A stretch of DNA of 33,482 nucleotides from Ehrlichia minasensis (lineage in GTDB: Bacteria > Pseudomonadota > Alphaproteobacteria > Rickettsiales > Anaplasmataceae): assembly GCA_000825765.1 (NCBI GenBank), contig CDGH01000028.1:1-33482 (forward strand). The letters run 5' to 3'. Below the pieces are notes generated by a model that made no database searches, was not told the DNA's origin, and saw only the letters and a program-made list of their open reading frames with translations. Numbering within the stretch: the first letter of the stretch is position 1; each line of letters opens with the position of its first letter. The position numbers were made by a program, and so were the translations under genes. Of the stretch, positions 3,798 to 33,482 are shown in pieces.

Positions 3798-5264
3798 ATG
3801 TTTGTTAAACTAAAATTAAATGATGATCTAGAAAGCAATACAACAAGTACATCAGATAATACTCATGACAATCAAGTTTGTGCACCAAAAAATAAAAACA
3901 CCATTAACATAACAGCATCTGAAGATGAAACAACTTCAGATGATTTACATAACACTCAAGAATTAACTCCTCAACAGATTACACAAGCACTAGACAGATT
4001 CATTATAGGGCAAGCAGATGCAAAACGCGCTGTAGCTATTGCTTTAAGAAATCGTTGGCGCCGTAATAGAGTACCTGAACCATTGAGAGAGGAGATTATT
4101 CCTAAGAACATCCTAATGATAGGACATACAGGTATTGGTAAAACAGAAATAGCACGCAGATTAGCAAAGCTTGCAAAAGCACCATTTATAAAAGTAGAAG
4201 CTACAAAATTCACTGAAATAGGATATGTAGGTAGAGATGTAGATTCCATTATACGTGACTTAGTTGATGTGGCTATTAATCTTGTCAAAGAAAAATTCCG
4301 TAAAATTGTAGAGAAAAAAGCAAAAGCCTTATCAGAAAGTATGATTCTTGATGCACTGATAGGACCTGATGCAAGTGAAGAAACAAAAACTACTTTTCAA
4401 GAAAAGTTAAGAGACGGAGAGTTTGAAGATTCTGAAATTTCAATCTCTATAAAGGAGAGCAAAAATACAATGCCTCCTATTGATATCCCTAATATTCCTG
4501 GCAATCAAGTCGGAATTATGAATATCAACGAGATTGTACACAAAATGCTAGGCAATAACAAACAACTTAAAACCATTAAAGTTACTGTCAAAGAAGCAAG
4601 AGAATTGCTTATTAATGAAGAAAGCGAAAAGTTGATGGATGAAGACAAGATTATAAAAGAAGCACTGCAACTAGCAAGTAACGACGGTATTGTCTTCTTA
4701 GATGAAATAGATAAAATTGCAGCTCGTACAGAAATTAGAGGAGAAGTTAACAGAGAAGGTGTACAAAGAGATCTTCTACCATTACTTGAGGGAACAAGTG
4801 TAACAACCAAATATGGGACCATTACAACTGACCATATTTTGTTCATAGCATCTGGAGCATTTCATTTAGCTAAGCCTTCTGATTTATTACCTGAATTACA
4901 AGGACGTCTTCCTATAAGAGTAGAACTTAAACCTCTTAGTAAAGACGATCTAGTACGTATACTAACTGAACCAGAGTCAAGTCTATTAAAGCAATACTGC
5001 GCATTAATGAAAACAGAAAATATTACTATTGACTTTACTGATGAAGGAGTATCTACCATCGCAGAAATAGCATCTACAGTTAATAGAGAGGTTGAAAATA
5101 TTGGAGCACGTAGGTTACACACTATTTTAGAAAAGCTAATGGAAGACATTAGCTACACTGCAACAGAGAATAGCGGTAAAACATATGTTATTGACAGCGA
5201 ATACGTAAAGCAGAAATTAGAAGATATTTCAAAACAATTAGACTTATCAAAATTTATACTATAA
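3798..5264 (+). CDS. hslU: HslU, AAA+ unfoldase of the HslUV protease
   Basis: ATPase ring that unfolds substrates and feeds them to HslV. Of 488 residues, the conserved start [18 protein letters not shown] begins at 55, so residues 1-54 are a polar Asn/Thr/Asp-rich extension absent from the 443-residue E. coli protein. Walker A is GHTGIGKT (109-116), with His where Pro is usual. The I-domain follows, then Walker [10 protein letters not shown]. The C-terminal tail ends in DLSKFIL, the peptide that docks into HslV pockets in the family (LSRFIL type). The extension is in frame from an ATG directly after hslV with no better internal start nearby; whether it is translated in full is an inference. 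The gene lies between hslV and ubiE with gaps of 1 and 2 bp. Confidence 0.98.
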
Positions 5265-5266
5265 CT

Positions 5267-5959
5267 ATGGAAGAAAGATCAAAGTTTGTTAATAAAGTTT
5301 TCACTTCAGTCGCCTCTAGATATGATTTAATGAATGATATAATGAGCTTTGGTCTCCATAGGCTATGGAAAAATAAAGTAATTCAGAATATCACTAGTGG
5401 AAGCTTACTTGATGTTGCATGTGGCACTGGAGATATAGCAATAAAGGTAACAAAAAAAACACAAAATGTAGACATAATAGTATGTGATATCAATCCTAAG
5501 ATGTTACGTCATGGCAGAGACAATGCAATAAATAAAAACGCATTAAACCTTAAATGGGTATGTGGCAATGCAGAACAACTCCCATTCCCAGATAACAGTT
5601 TTGACTATTATACAATTTCTTTTGGCATCCGTAATGTCTCTAACAGACAACTTGCACTTAACGAGGCATACAGAGTTCTTAAACAAGGAGGGAAATTTAT
5701 ATGTTTAGAATTCTCACCTTTAAAAGAAAGTCATCCTCTTCACAAATTATATAACTTTTATTCATTCAGTATTATACCTAACATAGGGCAATTGGTAGCA
5801 AAAGATAAAGCTTCATATCAATATTTAGTAGACAGTATAAGTGAATTTCCATATCAGGAAGACTTTTCACAAGAAATACAAAACTCTAACTTTAAAGAAA
5901 TCAAATATAACAATCTATGTTTTAGCATAGTCACATTATATACAGCTTTAAAGCTATAG
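5267..5959 (+). CDS. ubiE: Demethylmenaquinone/2-methoxy-6-polyprenyl-1,4-benzoquinol methylase
   Basis: SAM-dependent C-methyltransferase of ubiquinone biosynthesis, supplying quinone to the respiratory chain. In an alphaproteobacterium the ubiquinone role is expected. SAM motif I is LLDVACGTGDI (47-57). UbiE signatures FGIRNVSNRQLALNEAYRVLKQGG and the early RYDLMNDIMSFGLHRLWK (18-35) are present. The length of 230 aa is slightly short of the E. coli protein (251). It begins two bases after the hslU stop with no separate promoter space, so it is read with the protease genes, a pairing with no obvious functional logic. It is convergent with metG. Confidence 0.96.
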   Translation: MEERSKFVNKVFTSVASRYDLMNDIMSFGLHRLWKNKVIQNITSGSLLDVACGTGDIAIKVTKKTQNVDIIVCDINPKMLRHGRDNAINKNALNLKWVCGNAEQLPFPDNSFDYYTISFGIRNVSNRQLALNEAYRVLKQGGKFICLEFSPLKESHPLHKLYNFYSFSIIPNIGQLVAKDKASYQYLVDSISEFPYQEDFSQEIQNSNFKEIKYNNLCFSIVTLYTALKL

Positions 5960-6155
5960 CTGCTAATATCAAAGTTTTTTCTATTCACAGAATTCTTCAC
6001 CATATCACTTAACATAGAATTATCAAAACAAATTTTATAGATAAAGAAATTTTTAATACAACATACAGATCTAGTAAGTTTCATCATAAATACAATCTAA
6101 AAACATATACTGACTTCAATATCAAAGTACTTTACAATACGCCTAACAAATAAAA

Positions 6156-6192
6156 GCACAGTTATTTAAATTTTTAGAATCTTTAACTGTGC
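6156..6192. terminator. Hairpin, possible terminator between ubiE and metG
   Basis: Perfect 9-bp inverted repeat GCACAGTTA / TAACTGTGC with a 19-base AT loop. It lies about 200 bp beyond the ubiE stop and about 315 bp beyond the metG stop. No clean T-run follows, so intrinsic termination is only possible. Confidence 0.4.
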
Positions 6193-6208
6193 AATGAAAA
6201 TACTGTGC

Positions 6209-6458
6209 TTAAATAAAACAAAACTATTTCACACATAAAACTTTTATATCACTTGTACTTGCGCTTGCAGTAATATTACTTTTTTACTTGCACCTATAAC
6301 TTAATCAACTTTTTACATCATTTTTCTATCACACTGGACCACATGGGATGCTAAGTTCAGCAAGCATCCGTAAATTAACAAATCAGCATAAGTTTAAATA
6401 AAACAAAACTATTTCACACATAAAACTTTTTCACAGACATTGTACTGGCAGTAATATT
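6209..6458. repeat. Imperfect direct repeat, two copies about 185 bp apart
   Basis: Copy 1 is 6209-6277 and copy 2 is 6394-6458. The first 35 or so bases are identical; after that they diverge by small indels but both end in CAGTAATATT. The second hairpin sits between the copies. It looks like a small, partly eroded segmental duplication. Confidence 0.75.
6346..6369. terminator. GC-containing hairpin near metG 3' end
   Basis: Perfect 7-bp inverted repeat GGATGCT / AGCATCC around a 10-base loop, notable for its GC content in a very AT-rich gap. It could end transcripts from either side; no T-run is present. Confidence 0.35.
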
Positions 6459-6506
6459 TCTACCCATATTAACCAACATAACCATTAATTAACTATTTTA
6501 GATACC

Positions 6507-13964: not shown

Positions 13965-14720
13965 CAAAAGTACTGTTAGAAGAAGACTATATCACAAAAA
14001 CATAATAATAAAATATGCTTTATAATATCATTAAACTTTCTTACATTTCTTTAATTTCACCATTATAGGCTATTTATCAAGACAAATCACAATACATTTA
14101 TCTCAAATCCTTGAACCATATTACTGACAAAATATAACACATGGTCACGCTAAGAGAACCATAATATCATCATCTCTAAATAAATCTTATTCTACAAAGT
14201 ATCTCTAGAAAAAAACTACATTCAAAAATATAAGCATAAAACAAGAAACATGCTTTCATATCACTTTAAAGATTCATCATTTCATCATAAATTATAGAAT
14301 ATTTACAAATATAAATCACACACACTTATACTAACGCTCTTTTCTAATTTCATATTTGACAACACACAATGCACAGTACTGTTAGCTTTCAAGTACCACA
14401 ATGACAAAATCTTCTAAACCTTATCTCACAAAGCATCTCTAGGAAAAAACTACATTCAAAAATATAAGCATAAAACAAGAAACATGCTTTCATATCACTT
14501 TAAAGATTCATCATTTCATCATAAATTATAGAATATTTACAAATATAAATCACACACACTTATACTAACGCTCTTTTCTAATTTCATATTTGACAACACA
14601 CAATGCACAGTACTGTTAGCTTTCAAGTACCACAATGACAAAATCTTCTAAACCTTATCTCACAAAGTATCTCTAGGAAAAAAATTACATTCAAAAATAT
14701 AAGCAAAAAATATACTCAAT
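13965..14720. repeat. 234-bp tandem repeat array
   Basis: Copy 1 is 14197-14430 and copy 2 is 14431-14664; they are almost identical along their length. A third partial copy starts at 14665 and fades near 14720. Upstream, about 13965-14196 is a much more diverged copy of the same unit: shared landmarks are an ATATGCTTT-like block, an AAATCACA block and a final CTTATTCTAC / CTTATCTCAC. The array therefore has an old copy, two young ones and a stub. No open frame is carried. Confidence 0.93.
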
Positions 14721-20015: not shown

Positions 20016-20630
20016 TTATGAGGAATGGCTAAATATATCAACACCTTCCCAACCGAGTAAATCAAGCTGAGCTCTTGTTTGAAGAAATTTAAAACAAGCA
20101 GCTGCTAATTCTTGCTTATTTTCACGCTGTAACATTGCATCTAGCTTGCTTTTTAAAGCATGCAAATAAATAACATCTGATGCTGCATAATTTAATTGTT
20201 CAGATGTTAAACTTTCTTTTCCCCAATCAGATGATTGTTGCATTTTATTAAGTTTTACACCCAGCAATTCATAACATAGCTCCTTTAATCCATGATGATC
20301 CGTATATGTTCTAACTAACTTCGAAGCTATCTTAGTACAATAACATGGATTAGTCCATACACCAAGATAATAACGCATTACAGCAATATCAAAGCGAGCA
20401 AAATGAAAGATCTTAGTTATCTTTGAATCTGAAAGTATACTTACTAAATTAGGTGCCTGATAATTACCTGAAAACTTAACCAAGTGGACACTACCACTAC
20501 TATCAGCTAATTGAACTAAGCATAATCTATCACGTCTACATACTAAACCCATAGTCTCAGTATCAATAGCAACAGCACCTTCAAAGTTTAGCTCATTAGG
20601 TAAATCACAATCATGTACAAATACAGGCAC
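20016..20630 (-). CDS. rnd: Ribonuclease D-like 3'-5' exonuclease
   Basis: DEDDy exonuclease acting in tRNA or small-RNA 3' trimming. Catalytic residues are Asp23 and Glu25 (AIDTETMGL), Asp81 (HFARFD) and Tyr148/Asp152 (YAASD). At 204 aa it has only the exonuclease domain; the two HRDC domains of E. coli RNase D (375 aa) are missing, as is common in Rickettsiales. The start is GTG at 20630 with a strong GGAGG 9 bases upstream. It could equally be described as an Rrp6/WRN-type exonuclease domain protein, and the substrate is not certain. It lies between ctrA and dnaN on the same strand. Confidence 0.9.
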   Translation of the reverse strand: MPVFVHDCDLPNELNFEGAVAIDTETMGLVCRRDRLCLVQLADSSGSVHLVKFSGNYQAPNLVSILSDSKITKIFHFARFDIAVMRYYLGVWTNPCYCTKIASKLVRTYTDHHGLKELCYELLGVKLNKMQQSSDWGKESLTSEQLNYAASDVIYLHALKSKLDAMLQRENKQELAAACFKFLQTRAQLDLLGWEGVDIFSHSS

Positions 20631-21893: not shown

Positions 21894-22529
21894 TTACAAA
21901 GACCGTGCATACCAAATTACTCTCCCTAATATCTCCATGTCCTCCAAATGACACTCATAAGAAGAATATTTTTTATTATCTGACACTACATGCAATTTTA
22001 TTTTTTGGTTTTCTTTTAAATATTCCAATCTCCTGATTGATACACCAACCGTATCAACTATTACAAATAACCCAGCAGGATGAGGAATTTTATCACCTAT
22101 ATCTACTAAAACAATATCCTGGTTCATTAATGTCGGAATCATACTATCACCTTTTACGTAGTATACACGTAAATTTTTCATGTTAGAAGTTAAATTAATG
22201 TTTGAAGACAAATACAAATTCACATCACCTGAAGATGATACCTTGCCATTTTCTAATTCTAAATCATACACAGGTAGTATATTCATATTACCTTGTCCAT
22301 AAGTATAATTATCATCACTAATTAAATATGACAATGAAACATTTAACACTTTTGCTATTGCCATTAATTTTTTAGATGTAGGATTTGTTGACTTTCCACT
22401 TAGTATATCATACACAAAAGATTTTCCAACATCAGCTTTGTGAGCTAGCTCACGTGCATTTATCCCCATTTTATCCATTTGGTACTTCATTCTAGTAACT
22501 ATCATACTATTATCACTACTTGTTTTCAT
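21894..22529 (-). CDS. HTH (XRE) / S24-type transcriptional regulator
   Basis: CI/LexA-like regulator of 211 aa. A Cro/CI helix-turn-helix occupies about 14-70 (INARELAHKADVGKSFVYDI, then LMAIAKVLNVSLSYLI). A C-terminal S24 peptidase-like domain occupies about 118-211, with the serine in VKGDSM (Ser129). The position of the LexA catalytic lysine (VKRL in E. coli) reads IRRL here (Arg166), and no Ala-Gly cleavage site is seen in the linker, so self-cleavage is doubtful. It may instead be a non-cleaving repressor with a dimerisation domain. AAGGTGA precedes the ATG. No phage genes surround it; it sits upstream of ctrA on the same strand. Targets are unknown. Confidence 0.9.
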   Translation of the reverse strand: MKTSSDNSMIVTRMKYQMDKMGINARELAHKADVGKSFVYDILSGKSTNPTSKKLMAIAKVLNVSLSYLISDDNYTYGQGNMNILPVYDLELENGKVSSSGDVNLYLSSNINLTSNMKNLRVYYVKGDSMIPTLMNQDIVLVDIGDKIPHPAGLFVIVDTVGVSIRRLEYLKENQKIKLHVVSDNKKYSSYECHLEDMEILGRVIWYARSL

Positions 22530-22561
22530 AAATTCACCTTACAGTTAATATTTATTACATT

Positions 22562-22590
22562 TTTGTACAATCTAAAGTACATAAACTCAA
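22562..22590 (-). promoter_or_regulatory. Promoter of the S24 regulator with embedded operator
   Basis: On the minus strand TTGAGT (22590-22585), 17-bp spacer, TACAAA (22567-22562). A dyad TGTAC-N8-GTACA (22564-22568 and 22577-22581) overlaps the spacer and -10; with one mismatch the arms extend to nine bases (TTTtTGTAC). This is where an autorepressor would bind. The first transcribed base would be about 25 nt before the ATG. Confidence 0.45.
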
Positions 22591-23053
22591 GTAATAATTG
22601 AATTATTCACTAATAGTTGAGCATCAAATCACAAAATCACTAGTAAGTAGCACTAAATATTCTGAAAATTAACTTCAATACAAATGCTCACTACCATGCA
22701 AACCAGAAATCATCAAATGACATAATCAGCATCAATTTAATTCCAAAACATCAATTAAATGCAATTCACAAACTTTTACACTTACAAAAAACAACACATT
22801 CCATACCAATAACCTTTTAAAAAAACATCATATTAACAATCAAATAACATGATACCACAACACTACCTACAGAAAGCTCATATTTCTGTCACAGTAAAAT
22901 ATCTCGGTAATTTATTGCTTATTATTAACATTATAGTATATCAAAATAACCAAACAAGTATATATTTCTAGCTAAAGTTATTATAAAAACCTGCATTGCG
23001 AGACATAATAAAAGCACTATACCATATAACAATATGTAATAAACTATTGCTAT
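22591..23053. other. Gene-free stretch upstream of the S24 regulator
   Basis: About 460 bp without a gene. Its right end (about 23028-23060) resembles the end of the 222-bp unit that follows, suggesting a further, badly eroded copy. Otherwise nothing is recognised. Confidence 0.45.
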
Positions 23054-23498
23054 AAATCAATATACTGATCAGCTAAAGCACCTATATAAGATCTTCTATA
23101 ACTTTAATTCTTGTCAAACATCCACAAATACGAATTTATCCTCTGACAATAAAAAATCTCTGACTAAAAAAATTTCTTACACTTATTAAACAAAAAACTT
23201 GTACTTTGTAAGTAAAACTACTACATCACATCAATAATATTATATAAACTTAGGCTATAAGTTATTATGATAACAAAATCAATATATCTACTTAGCTAAA
23301 GCACTCAATATAAAGCCTTCTATAACTTTAATTCTTGCAAACATCCACAAATACGAATTTATCCTCTGACAATAAAAAATCTCTGACTAAAAAAATTTCT
23401 TACACTTATTAAACAAAAAACTTGTACTTTGTAAGTAAAACTACTACATCACATCAATAATATTATATAAACTTAGGCTATAAGTTATTATGATAACA
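23054..23498. repeat. 222-bp tandem repeat containing decayed ppa 3' ends
   Basis: Unit 1 is 23054-23275 and unit 2 is 23276-23498; the third start (23499) runs into the true end of ppa. The first 85-95 bases of each unit (about 23065-23149 and 23288-23372) align with the last 85 or so bases of ppa (23511-23597). The remaining 130 or so bases are downstream spacer, identical in both units. On the minus strand unit 2 still reads EDKFVFVDVCKN, a shift, then FILSALAK and stop, against EDKFVSVDGWKD...FILNALAK in ppa. Confidence 0.92.
23288..23372 (-). pseudogene. Decayed C-terminal fragment of ppa (unit 2)
   Basis: About 28 codons of the inorganic pyrophosphatase C-terminus, including the same stop codon (23288-23290), with one frameshift and several substitutions. 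It has no start and cannot be expressed as a protein. A sister fragment lies at about 23065-23149. It arose by tandem duplication from the intact ppa immediately to the right. Confidence 0.85.
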
Positions 23499-23510
23499 AA
23501 ATCAATATAT

Positions 23511-24029
23511 CTACTTAGCTAAAGCATTTAATATAAAATCTTCTGCAACTTTCATATCTTTCCAACCATCTACAGATACAAACTTATCTTCTTCTAGCTT
23601 TTTATAAAAAGAAAAGAAATGTGCTATAGAATTTAAAAATGATACAGGAAAATCAGAATAATTCTTTATATTAGCATAGTATTGATCTATCTTACTTGTA
23701 GGTACAGCTAATATTTTGACATCTTCTCCACCCTCATCACGCATAATTAACACACCTACCGGCCTTGCACAAATCACTGCTCCAGACATTACAGGAAACC
23801 TAGTTGCCACTAAAACATCAACAGGATCACCATCTCCAGCACAAGTATGTGGGATAAACCCATAGTTACATGGATAATACATAGATGTAGGTAAAAATCT
23901 GTCTACACAAAATAAATTTTTCTTTTTGTCAAACTCATATTTTACTGGACATGAATTCTGGCTAATCTCAATAACAACATTGATCTCCTTGGGTACATTA
24001 TCACCACTAGTCAAATTATCTAAATTCAT
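23511..24029 (-). CDS. ppa: Inorganic pyrophosphatase
   Basis: Family I soluble pyrophosphatase hydrolysing PPi and so driving nucleic acid synthesis and tRNA charging. The signature DGDPVDVLV is at 66-74, with metal-binding Asp66, Asp68 and Asp71. YPCNYGFIP (52-60) and KILAVPTSKID with downstream Lys/Tyr ligands also fit. The 172-aa length is usual for alphaproteobacteria. An AAGAGA ribosome site and a good promoter lie upstream. The 3' end is the parent of two decayed copies downstream; its own C-terminus (NALAK) is intact. Confidence 0.98.
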   Translation of the reverse strand: MNLDNLTSGDNVPKEINVVIEISQNSCPVKYEFDKKKNLFCVDRFLPTSMYYPCNYGFIPHTCAGDGDPVDVLVATRFPVMSGAVICARPVGVLIMRDEGGEDVKILAVPTSKIDQYYANIKNYSDFPVSFLNSIAHFFSFYKKLEEDKFVSVDGWKDMKVAEDFILNALAK

Positions 24030-24818
24030 AATTAATCTCTTAACATAACAAAATGCGCAATTTGTATACCAGATCAGGAAATGATCATTAAACTTAATAA
24101 TACTAATCCCTTTATACTCTAGTCAATCCTTTTCTAATTCAATATTCAAGCAATACAACACCACAATTACTGCAGTACAATACTAATAAACACCGCACTT
24201 AAGTGAACAATTATTTTCTAATGTGCCTTAAGCTTATACTGCCATAAACTTTTACACACAGAATAAAAAATTCCATATTACCTAATTTAAGCTTAATCTC
24301 AAACGCATTCTGTAAATTACGCATTTTAAAGCAGCTGGCAAATAATTAATGAATCAATTCATCTTTTCACAACATGCTTAAATAAAGTAACATTTGATTA
24401 ATAAGCCAATATAAATCATTTATAAACACATGTAACAACCTTTAATAGCTCAAAGTTAACGCACCAACATATCATACTTAAAATACTACAGTACTAACCA
24501 TTATACTGCTAGCCAACTATTATAATACAACACCAAACTAACATTTCATCAAAAACTTTACAGAATTTTTTATTCACCATTTTGATAGTTGGACATATAA
24601 ATTATGTTGTCATGTATAAGCAGCTTTAAAAGATAAGTAATGTTTTCATAACATTGAAATTTCGCACTACCAATAAACTACTAATAATAAAACATAGTCT
24701 TACTATTTCTAGACAAAGGTTATAAAAATACATTTTTCAATGCGTAATCACATGTACTACTTAATTAATAAACTTACATAAATTACTTATACACAGATGT
24801 TTGCAATATTTATCAGAT
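24030..24818. other. argC-ppa intergenic region
   Basis: 789 bp between two minus-strand genes. Apart from the ppa promoter at its left end I see no gene, RNA gene or clear repeat. The + strand is C-rich relative to G. Confidence 0.5.
24097..24126 (-). promoter_or_regulatory. Predicted sigma-70 promoter of ppa
   Basis: On the minus strand TTGACT (24126-24121), 18-bp spacer, TATTAT (24102-24097). The leader would be about 60 bases. This supports ppa being transcribed separately from argC. Confidence 0.5.
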
Positions 24819-33231: not shown

Positions 33232-33482
33232 ATATATAAGAAACTCCACAGTGCCATATTTAGTTGGGTTTGAAAACCGATTAACTACTAAAACTTAATC
33301 AATACAAAACATCTCAACCTTCAAAATTTTATAACATACAAAAGGATTTATAACTCACTCTATACATATATAAAGCAACTCTACAGCTTCATATTTAGTT
33401 GGATCTGAAACACTGATTAATTACTAAAACTTAATCAATACAAAACATCTCAACCTTCAAAATTTTATAACATACAAAAGGA
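33232..33482. repeat. About 135-bp tandem repeat, runs off the window
   Basis: Copy 1 is 33232-33365 and copy 2 starts at 33366 and continues past the last base. The shared block AAAACTTAATCAATACAAAA onwards to ACATACAAAAGGA is identical in both; the leading 50 bases differ at several positions. The window end cuts the array, so the total copy number is unknown. Confidence 0.88.

Follow-up and report, generated by a model that had tools for sequence, protein, structure and literature searches.

A tandem array with decayed copies of the ppa 3' end in Ehrlichia minasensis

The ppa locus and the layout of the array

The window analyzed here is a 33,482-nt stretch of Ehrlichia minasensis DNA (assembly GCA_000825765.1, contig CDGH01000028.1). 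Positions 23511 to 24029, on the minus strand, hold an intact ppa gene encoding an inorganic diphosphatase of 172 amino acids (NCBIfam NF002317, 239.6 bits against a cut-off of 200). The downstream neighbor on the same strand, at 21894-22529, encodes a putative regulator of S24 type, from the ECH_1013 family. A regulator of this family also follows ppa in all five of the other loci examined. The two genes are separated by a gap of 981 bp, within which lies a tandem array. TRF places its limits at 23054 and 23592 and gives a period of 223, 2.4 copies and a score of 904; 82 bp of this interval fall within ppa itself.

Two exact blocks make up the repeated part. The longer one (189 bp; 23115-23303 and 23338-23526) recurs at an offset of 223 and the shorter one (21 bp; 23093-23113 and 23317-23337) at an offset of 224, a single extra base separating the two, for a total of 210 identical bp. 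Between the blocks, at positions 23304-23316, is a 13-bp patch that matches neither the corresponding ppa segment (23527-23539) nor its counterpart in the next unit (23080-23092), the exact-match runs stopping on both sides of it. A tandem repeat with decayed ppa ends had been proposed at this place by a sequence-only reading. TRF, the exact blocks and the shuffle tests described below all confirm it, with the correction that the units are spaced by 223/224 bp, not 222 bp.

Read along ppa on the minus strand, the parts follow one another in the order ppa-P0-D0-P1-D1-P2-D2, and are then succeeded by conserved flank toward the next gene. P0 (23511-23594) is the last ~84 nt of ppa and the parent of the captured ends. 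P1 (23288-23369), which contains the 13-bp patch, corresponds to the last ~27 codons of ppa in decayed form, and P2 (23065-23146) is a second decayed end. The noncoding part of unit 1, D0 (23370-23510), and its second copy, D1 (23147-23287), are identical at 141 of 141 bases, in agreement with the earlier description of the noncoding remainders. D2 (22960-23064), the oldest of the flank copies, is the original ppa 3' flank and passes without a break into the conserved downstream DNA. The array was originally assigned to 23054-23597; it is indeed found there, but the structure continues to about 22960, the older flank at 22960-23064 having escaped notice. Tandem duplication of a single segment, composed of a gene end plus its flank, yields this succession of three gene ends and three flanks.

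The repeat unit is not dispersed in the genome: at E <= 0.01, a search of the whole assembly returned the two array places at full length plus one 24-bp match, and loosening the threshold to E <= 1 added only short matches. Each 223-bp unit also contains, at the far end of D, a direct repeat of 16-17 bp (23141-23181 and 23364-23404), perhaps a small slippage product inside the unit.

Relatives of the captured ends and their flanks

To characterize the captured ends, their alignment scores were compared with those of 1000 dinucleotide shuffles per comparison. The stretch beginning with P1 (23288-23373) scores 80 against ppa, with shuffles averaging 19.8 and peaking at 37; the stretch beginning with P2 (23065-23150) scores 68, with a shuffle mean of 19.4 and a maximum of 32. 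When the near-identical tail was excluded and only the first 60 nt were considered, P1 and P2 scored 42 and 48, with shuffle maxima of 32 and 36. None of the 1000 shuffles reached the observed score in any of these comparisons. Chance resemblance, which the sequence-only reading had itself raised as the case against its proposal, thus does not account for either copy.

Estimates of divergence vary with the alignment used. In pairwise alignments, ppa differs from P1 at 14 of 81 positions and from P2 at 17 of 81, with three gap openings each, and P1 differs from P2 at 7 of 85 positions with two gap openings; the corresponding values in a nine-sequence MAFFT alignment are 18/82, 19/82 and 12/81. 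The copies were said to be closer to each other than to ppa. This is true of their 5' part but not of the 3' end of P1, whose last 16 nt are identical to ppa. Similarly, the stop codon attributed to both copies is retained in P1 (TAG) but reads CAG in P2. Both ends are frameshifted, as proposed, each having lost a net 2 nt relative to ppa in the pairwise alignments. The possibility that the captured ends are selected as coding DNA was considered and rejected: differences from P0 by codon position are 3/6/9 for P1 and 7/5/7 for P2 (MAFFT alignment), and their presence at all three positions, together with the frameshifts, indicates no clear coding constraint. In the MAFFT alignment both copies are nearest to P0 and to the E. 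canis end, and more distant from all five other Ehrlichia tails compared.

E. minasensis is the sister species of E. canis. The ppa gene of the window is 93% identical to that of E. canis Jake, as compared to 83% for E. ruminantium Welgevonden and 82% for E. ruminantium Omatjenne, which argues against the initial attribution of this DNA to E. ruminantium. E. minasensis and E. canis were each represented by one genome. In E. canis Jake, ppa is directly followed by a single flank, that is, the same place is in a single-copy state; TRF found no array in the 10.5-kb E. canis Jake locus, nor in the Welgevonden ppa locus. Arrays of other kinds were seen near ppa elsewhere. In Omatjenne, the same gap between ppa and the regulator holds a different, 116-bp array of 5.4 copies (5835-6461 of locus L005), which gives no blastn match to the Omatjenne ppa at E <= 1, and in E. 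muris an array of 136-bp units (3.4 copies; 4043-4506 of locus L003) lies upstream of ppa.

The noncoding parts also lead back to the ppa 3' flank. The best match of D outside the array lies in E. canis directly after ppa (E 1.1e-9, 75 of 141 nt covered). The homology links the ~75 nt of D0 that adjoin ppa with the E. canis flank, beginning right after the stop codon. Positions 23399-23510 align with this flank better than any of 1000 shuffles. D2 scores 120 against the same flank (0/1000 shuffles) and represents its orthologue. When D2 and D0 are compared directly, the similarity is weak (score reached by 8/1000 shuffles), so that their kinship is drawn through E. canis. A source was not found for the ~65 nt at the far end of D.

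Searches for additional ppa remnants gave mostly chance-like scores. Positions 23370-23430, in the middle of the unit, were rejected as decayed ppa body (423/1000 shuffles equal against ppa), as were further fossil units within 22541-22935 (784/1000 shuffles as good). The segment 22940-23010 resembles a ppa end plus flank, with a score reached by 1/1000 shuffles. Its E. canis counterpart is chance-like (412/1000), and the segment was not adopted as an older fourth ppa end; we keep it as a weak lead, perhaps a fourth, older copy, or else chance.

Arrays elsewhere in Ehrlichia and the origin of the ppa array

Arrays with a period of at least 60 were surveyed with TRF in the window, in 20 of the 187 contigs of the same genome (at most the first 20 kb of each; 231 kb) and in 400 kb each of E. 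canis and E. ruminantium Welgevonden, taken as 20 stretches per genome. The survey yielded 65 arrays: 8 in the E. minasensis contig sample, 18 in E. canis, 36 in Welgevonden and 3 in the window. Sixteen lie inside ORFs of at least 100 amino acids and 49 do not. An ORF end is overlapped by at least 25 bp in 10 of these 49 (1/7 in the contig sample, 2/10 in E. canis, 6/29 in Welgevonden, 1/3 in the window); genes were called mechanically, and the counts are rough and silent on any excess over random placement. Eight of the overlapped ends are 3' ends and two are 5' ends. Of the eight, L054 more closely resembles an ORF that extends into in-frame repeats. Copies were compared in the six 3'-end arrays that have at least two further copies, leaving aside two with a single further copy and the two 5'-end arrays. 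The similarity among copies exceeds their similarity to the gene in five of the six, L048 being the exception.

In Welgevonden, an array of 10.3 copies (L080, 2886-4344) covers the 3' end of a 673-aa ORF. Each of its nine copies has 4 to 7 differences from the gene end over 120 sites; with a mean difference of 2.4% among themselves versus 4.9% to the gene, the copies fit homogenization. The window harbors two arrays besides the one at ppa. The first (14181-14710; period 234, 2.3 copies) is fully intergenic; its alignments with E. canis, in several registers, all fall at one place (20157-20502 of the joined stretch), so that E. canis is probably single-copy there. The other (33232-33482; period 136) reaches the contig's end, and the assembly probably broke in this repeat.

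We interpret the ppa array as the product of a tandem duplication at the 3' end of the gene, non-coding and selectively neutral, followed by recombination or slippage between copies, and assign this reading a probability of roughly 0.85. Judging from the single-copy site of E. canis and from the order of the parts, the last ~27 codons of ppa would have been duplicated in tandem along with roughly 75-140 bp of adjoining DNA. The gene-proximal copy would have remained under selection as the true ppa end; the distal one, presumably released from selection, would have decayed through substitutions and frameshifts. Misaligned recombination or replication slippage may later have added a copy or overwritten one, leaving the 210 bp of identity and the 13-bp patch. 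The array and its internal identity, the homology to ppa beyond the shuffles, the order of the parts and the single-copy site in E. canis all support this reading. So do the location of the best outside match of D, at the same place in E. canis, and the finding of no clear coding constraint and no terminator, Rfam or fold signal. The survey adds further support, with gene ends in 10 of the 49 arrays outside ORFs and copies mutually closer than to the gene in five of six. On the opposite side, some 65 bp of the unit are without a found source, D2 and D0 are weakly similar, the 13-bp patch is not expected from one clean duplication, in L048 the copies resemble their gene at least as much as one another, and copies could have been collapsed or mixed during short-read assembly.

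The sequence-only reading had held the order of events to be readable: capture of the gene end, decay, then recent duplication of the decayed unit. A gene-end duplication and decay, then a more recent second duplication or homogenization, are supported, with E. canis in the single-copy state at this site. The order is less cleanly readable than claimed, however, because the 13-bp patch, set between blocks that total 210 bp and are identical but for a single extra base, matches neither ppa nor P2, and because the divergence of the captured end from ppa (17-23%) is at least that of intergenic DNA from E. canis. The decayed 5' parts that P1 and P2 have in common, and their mutual closeness, suggest that one decayed copy was reduplicated, or the copies homogenized, recently. 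The patch is possibly the junction of a second event made with errors, or a relic of a further copy since lost.

The age of the first event was approached by counting private sites. Among ppa, E. canis and P1, the MAFFT alignment gives 15 private sites out of 82 in P1, 3 in the ppa of the window and 5 in E. canis; with P2 the values are 15, 4 and 4. Pairwise alignments anchored on ppa or on E. canis give 12 and 12 for P1, and 15 and 12 for P2 (79-82 sites). Calibration was provided by the 16 other intergenic gaps of at least 60 bp in the window, in which 1309 of 8371 aligned positions (15.6%, about 7.8% per lineage) are different in E. canis; a first clock taken from the nearby flank (34/417) was dropped as too slow. 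A copy as old as the split is expected to carry 6.2-6.4 private differences. Poisson probabilities of the observed numbers are 0.003 (MAFFT, 15) and 0.003 to 0.031 (pairwise, 12 to 15). With a divergence at least equal to that of intergenic DNA, the first event is not clearly younger than the split from E. canis. Local intergenic rates vary widely, 82-bp stretches differing by up to 38%, and the counts depend on the alignment, so that the duplication is not firmly datable to before or after the split; the private sites mildly favor an origin of the captured end that would predate it. One can envisage that the array already existed in the common ancestor of E. minasensis and E. canis, that E. 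canis lost it cleanly by recombination, and that repeated exchange kept the E. minasensis copies uniform with the gene-proximal copy pinned by selection. We regard this full sequence of events as doubtful. If it were true, gene-end arrays would not be recent accidents but would persist over long times in a flickering state, and array turnover could be timed by a built-in clock, the anchored gene end.

The rival explanations carry little weight. The genome appears to be that of strain UFMG-EV, whose assembly (as E. mineirensis, now E. minasensis) was made with SPAdes from 2x150 reads and 516-bp inserts (PMC4319577). With short reads of this type, set against an identical block of 210 bp, the number of units may be underestimated, and the authors of three E. 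ruminantium drafts noted that some assembled tandem repeats were missing units. It is nevertheless unlikely that a longer or different array was misassembled into the observed unit number and P1 mosaic: the 13-bp patch occurs in three distinct versions, so more than one decayed end must exist, and similar arrays occur in single-contig genomes of E. canis and E. ruminantium. Slightly less probable still is a regulatory role, in which the repeated ppa 3' ends would serve as spare transcription ends or as spacers ahead of the regulator, their copy number tuning read-through. The position of the array between two same-strand genes in conserved order is compatible with such a role, as is the folding of the E. 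canis flank, slightly better than that of shuffles (z -1.5, 16/200 as good). In the window itself, no terminator-like sites were found in 22500-24100, promoter-like sites are rarer than in shuffles (6 versus a mean of 11.7), and the folds of D0, D2 and the P1 stretch (z 0.36, 0.94 and 1.71) do not surpass those of shuffles. Moreover, the array does not extend into the 81 bp by the start region of the regulator, which match E. canis exactly. Searches also returned no ORF of at least 60 amino acids in 22530-23510 and, in the window, no Rfam family at gathering thresholds. Finally, the 12 to 15 private differences of P1 and P2 might suggest that the ppa-like ends were acquired by transfer from another Ehrlichia and not from the local gene. 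Their proximity to P0 and E. canis rather than to the five other tails, and the local origin of the attached flank, make this highly improbable.

Under the neutral-duplication reading, the locus offers a clear case of non-coding DNA growth in Ehrlichia: a gene end is duplicated, one copy is held by selection, and the rest decays and is recopied. In gene-end arrays of this type the selected copy can serve as an internal yardstick, by which duplication and homogenization can be timed relative to each other.

Comparison with known repeats

Intergenic tandem repeats of E. ruminantium, gene fragments included, were reportedly described by Collins et al. in 2005 and Frutos et al. in 2006. The copy number of E. 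ruminantium arrays is reported as variable, and that of the ppa array may well be so by analogy. The features taken here to typify Ehrlichia intergenic tandem repeats were chosen for this analysis and not taken from a published definition. The ppa array consists of head-to-tail direct copies whose unit (period 223, 2.4 copies) falls within the range of ~100-400 bp, and most sampled arrays have similar periods; it is mainly non-coding, locus specific, and single-copy at the same place in E. canis Jake. It resembles the E. ruminantium repeats in its long non-coding units, present in few copies between genes; the arrays sampled in Welgevonden are alike, some of them extending over gene ends. It differs from them in that it occurs in another species and is known from one genome. 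The captured ends of the five other arrays in the comparison have also, on average, diverged less from their genes than the one captured here. The titles and abstract openings of the literature matches listed contained no description of the ppa locus.

A second point of reference is the partial duplicate of ntrX in E. ruminantium, for which sequence exchange with the parent gene is reported (PMC9937504). Both systems involve a partial gene copy near its parent, with exchange between copies reported for ntrX. The ntrX copy is inverted and its exchange reportedly disabled the gene in one strain; the ppa copies are direct repeats downstream of an intact gene, and any exchange between them is deduced from one genome, in which 210 identical bp lie beside a 13-bp patch unlike both neighbors. 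Showing no sign of function, the ppa array is a clean example, in another species, of the known non-coding tandem repeats of Ehrlichia.
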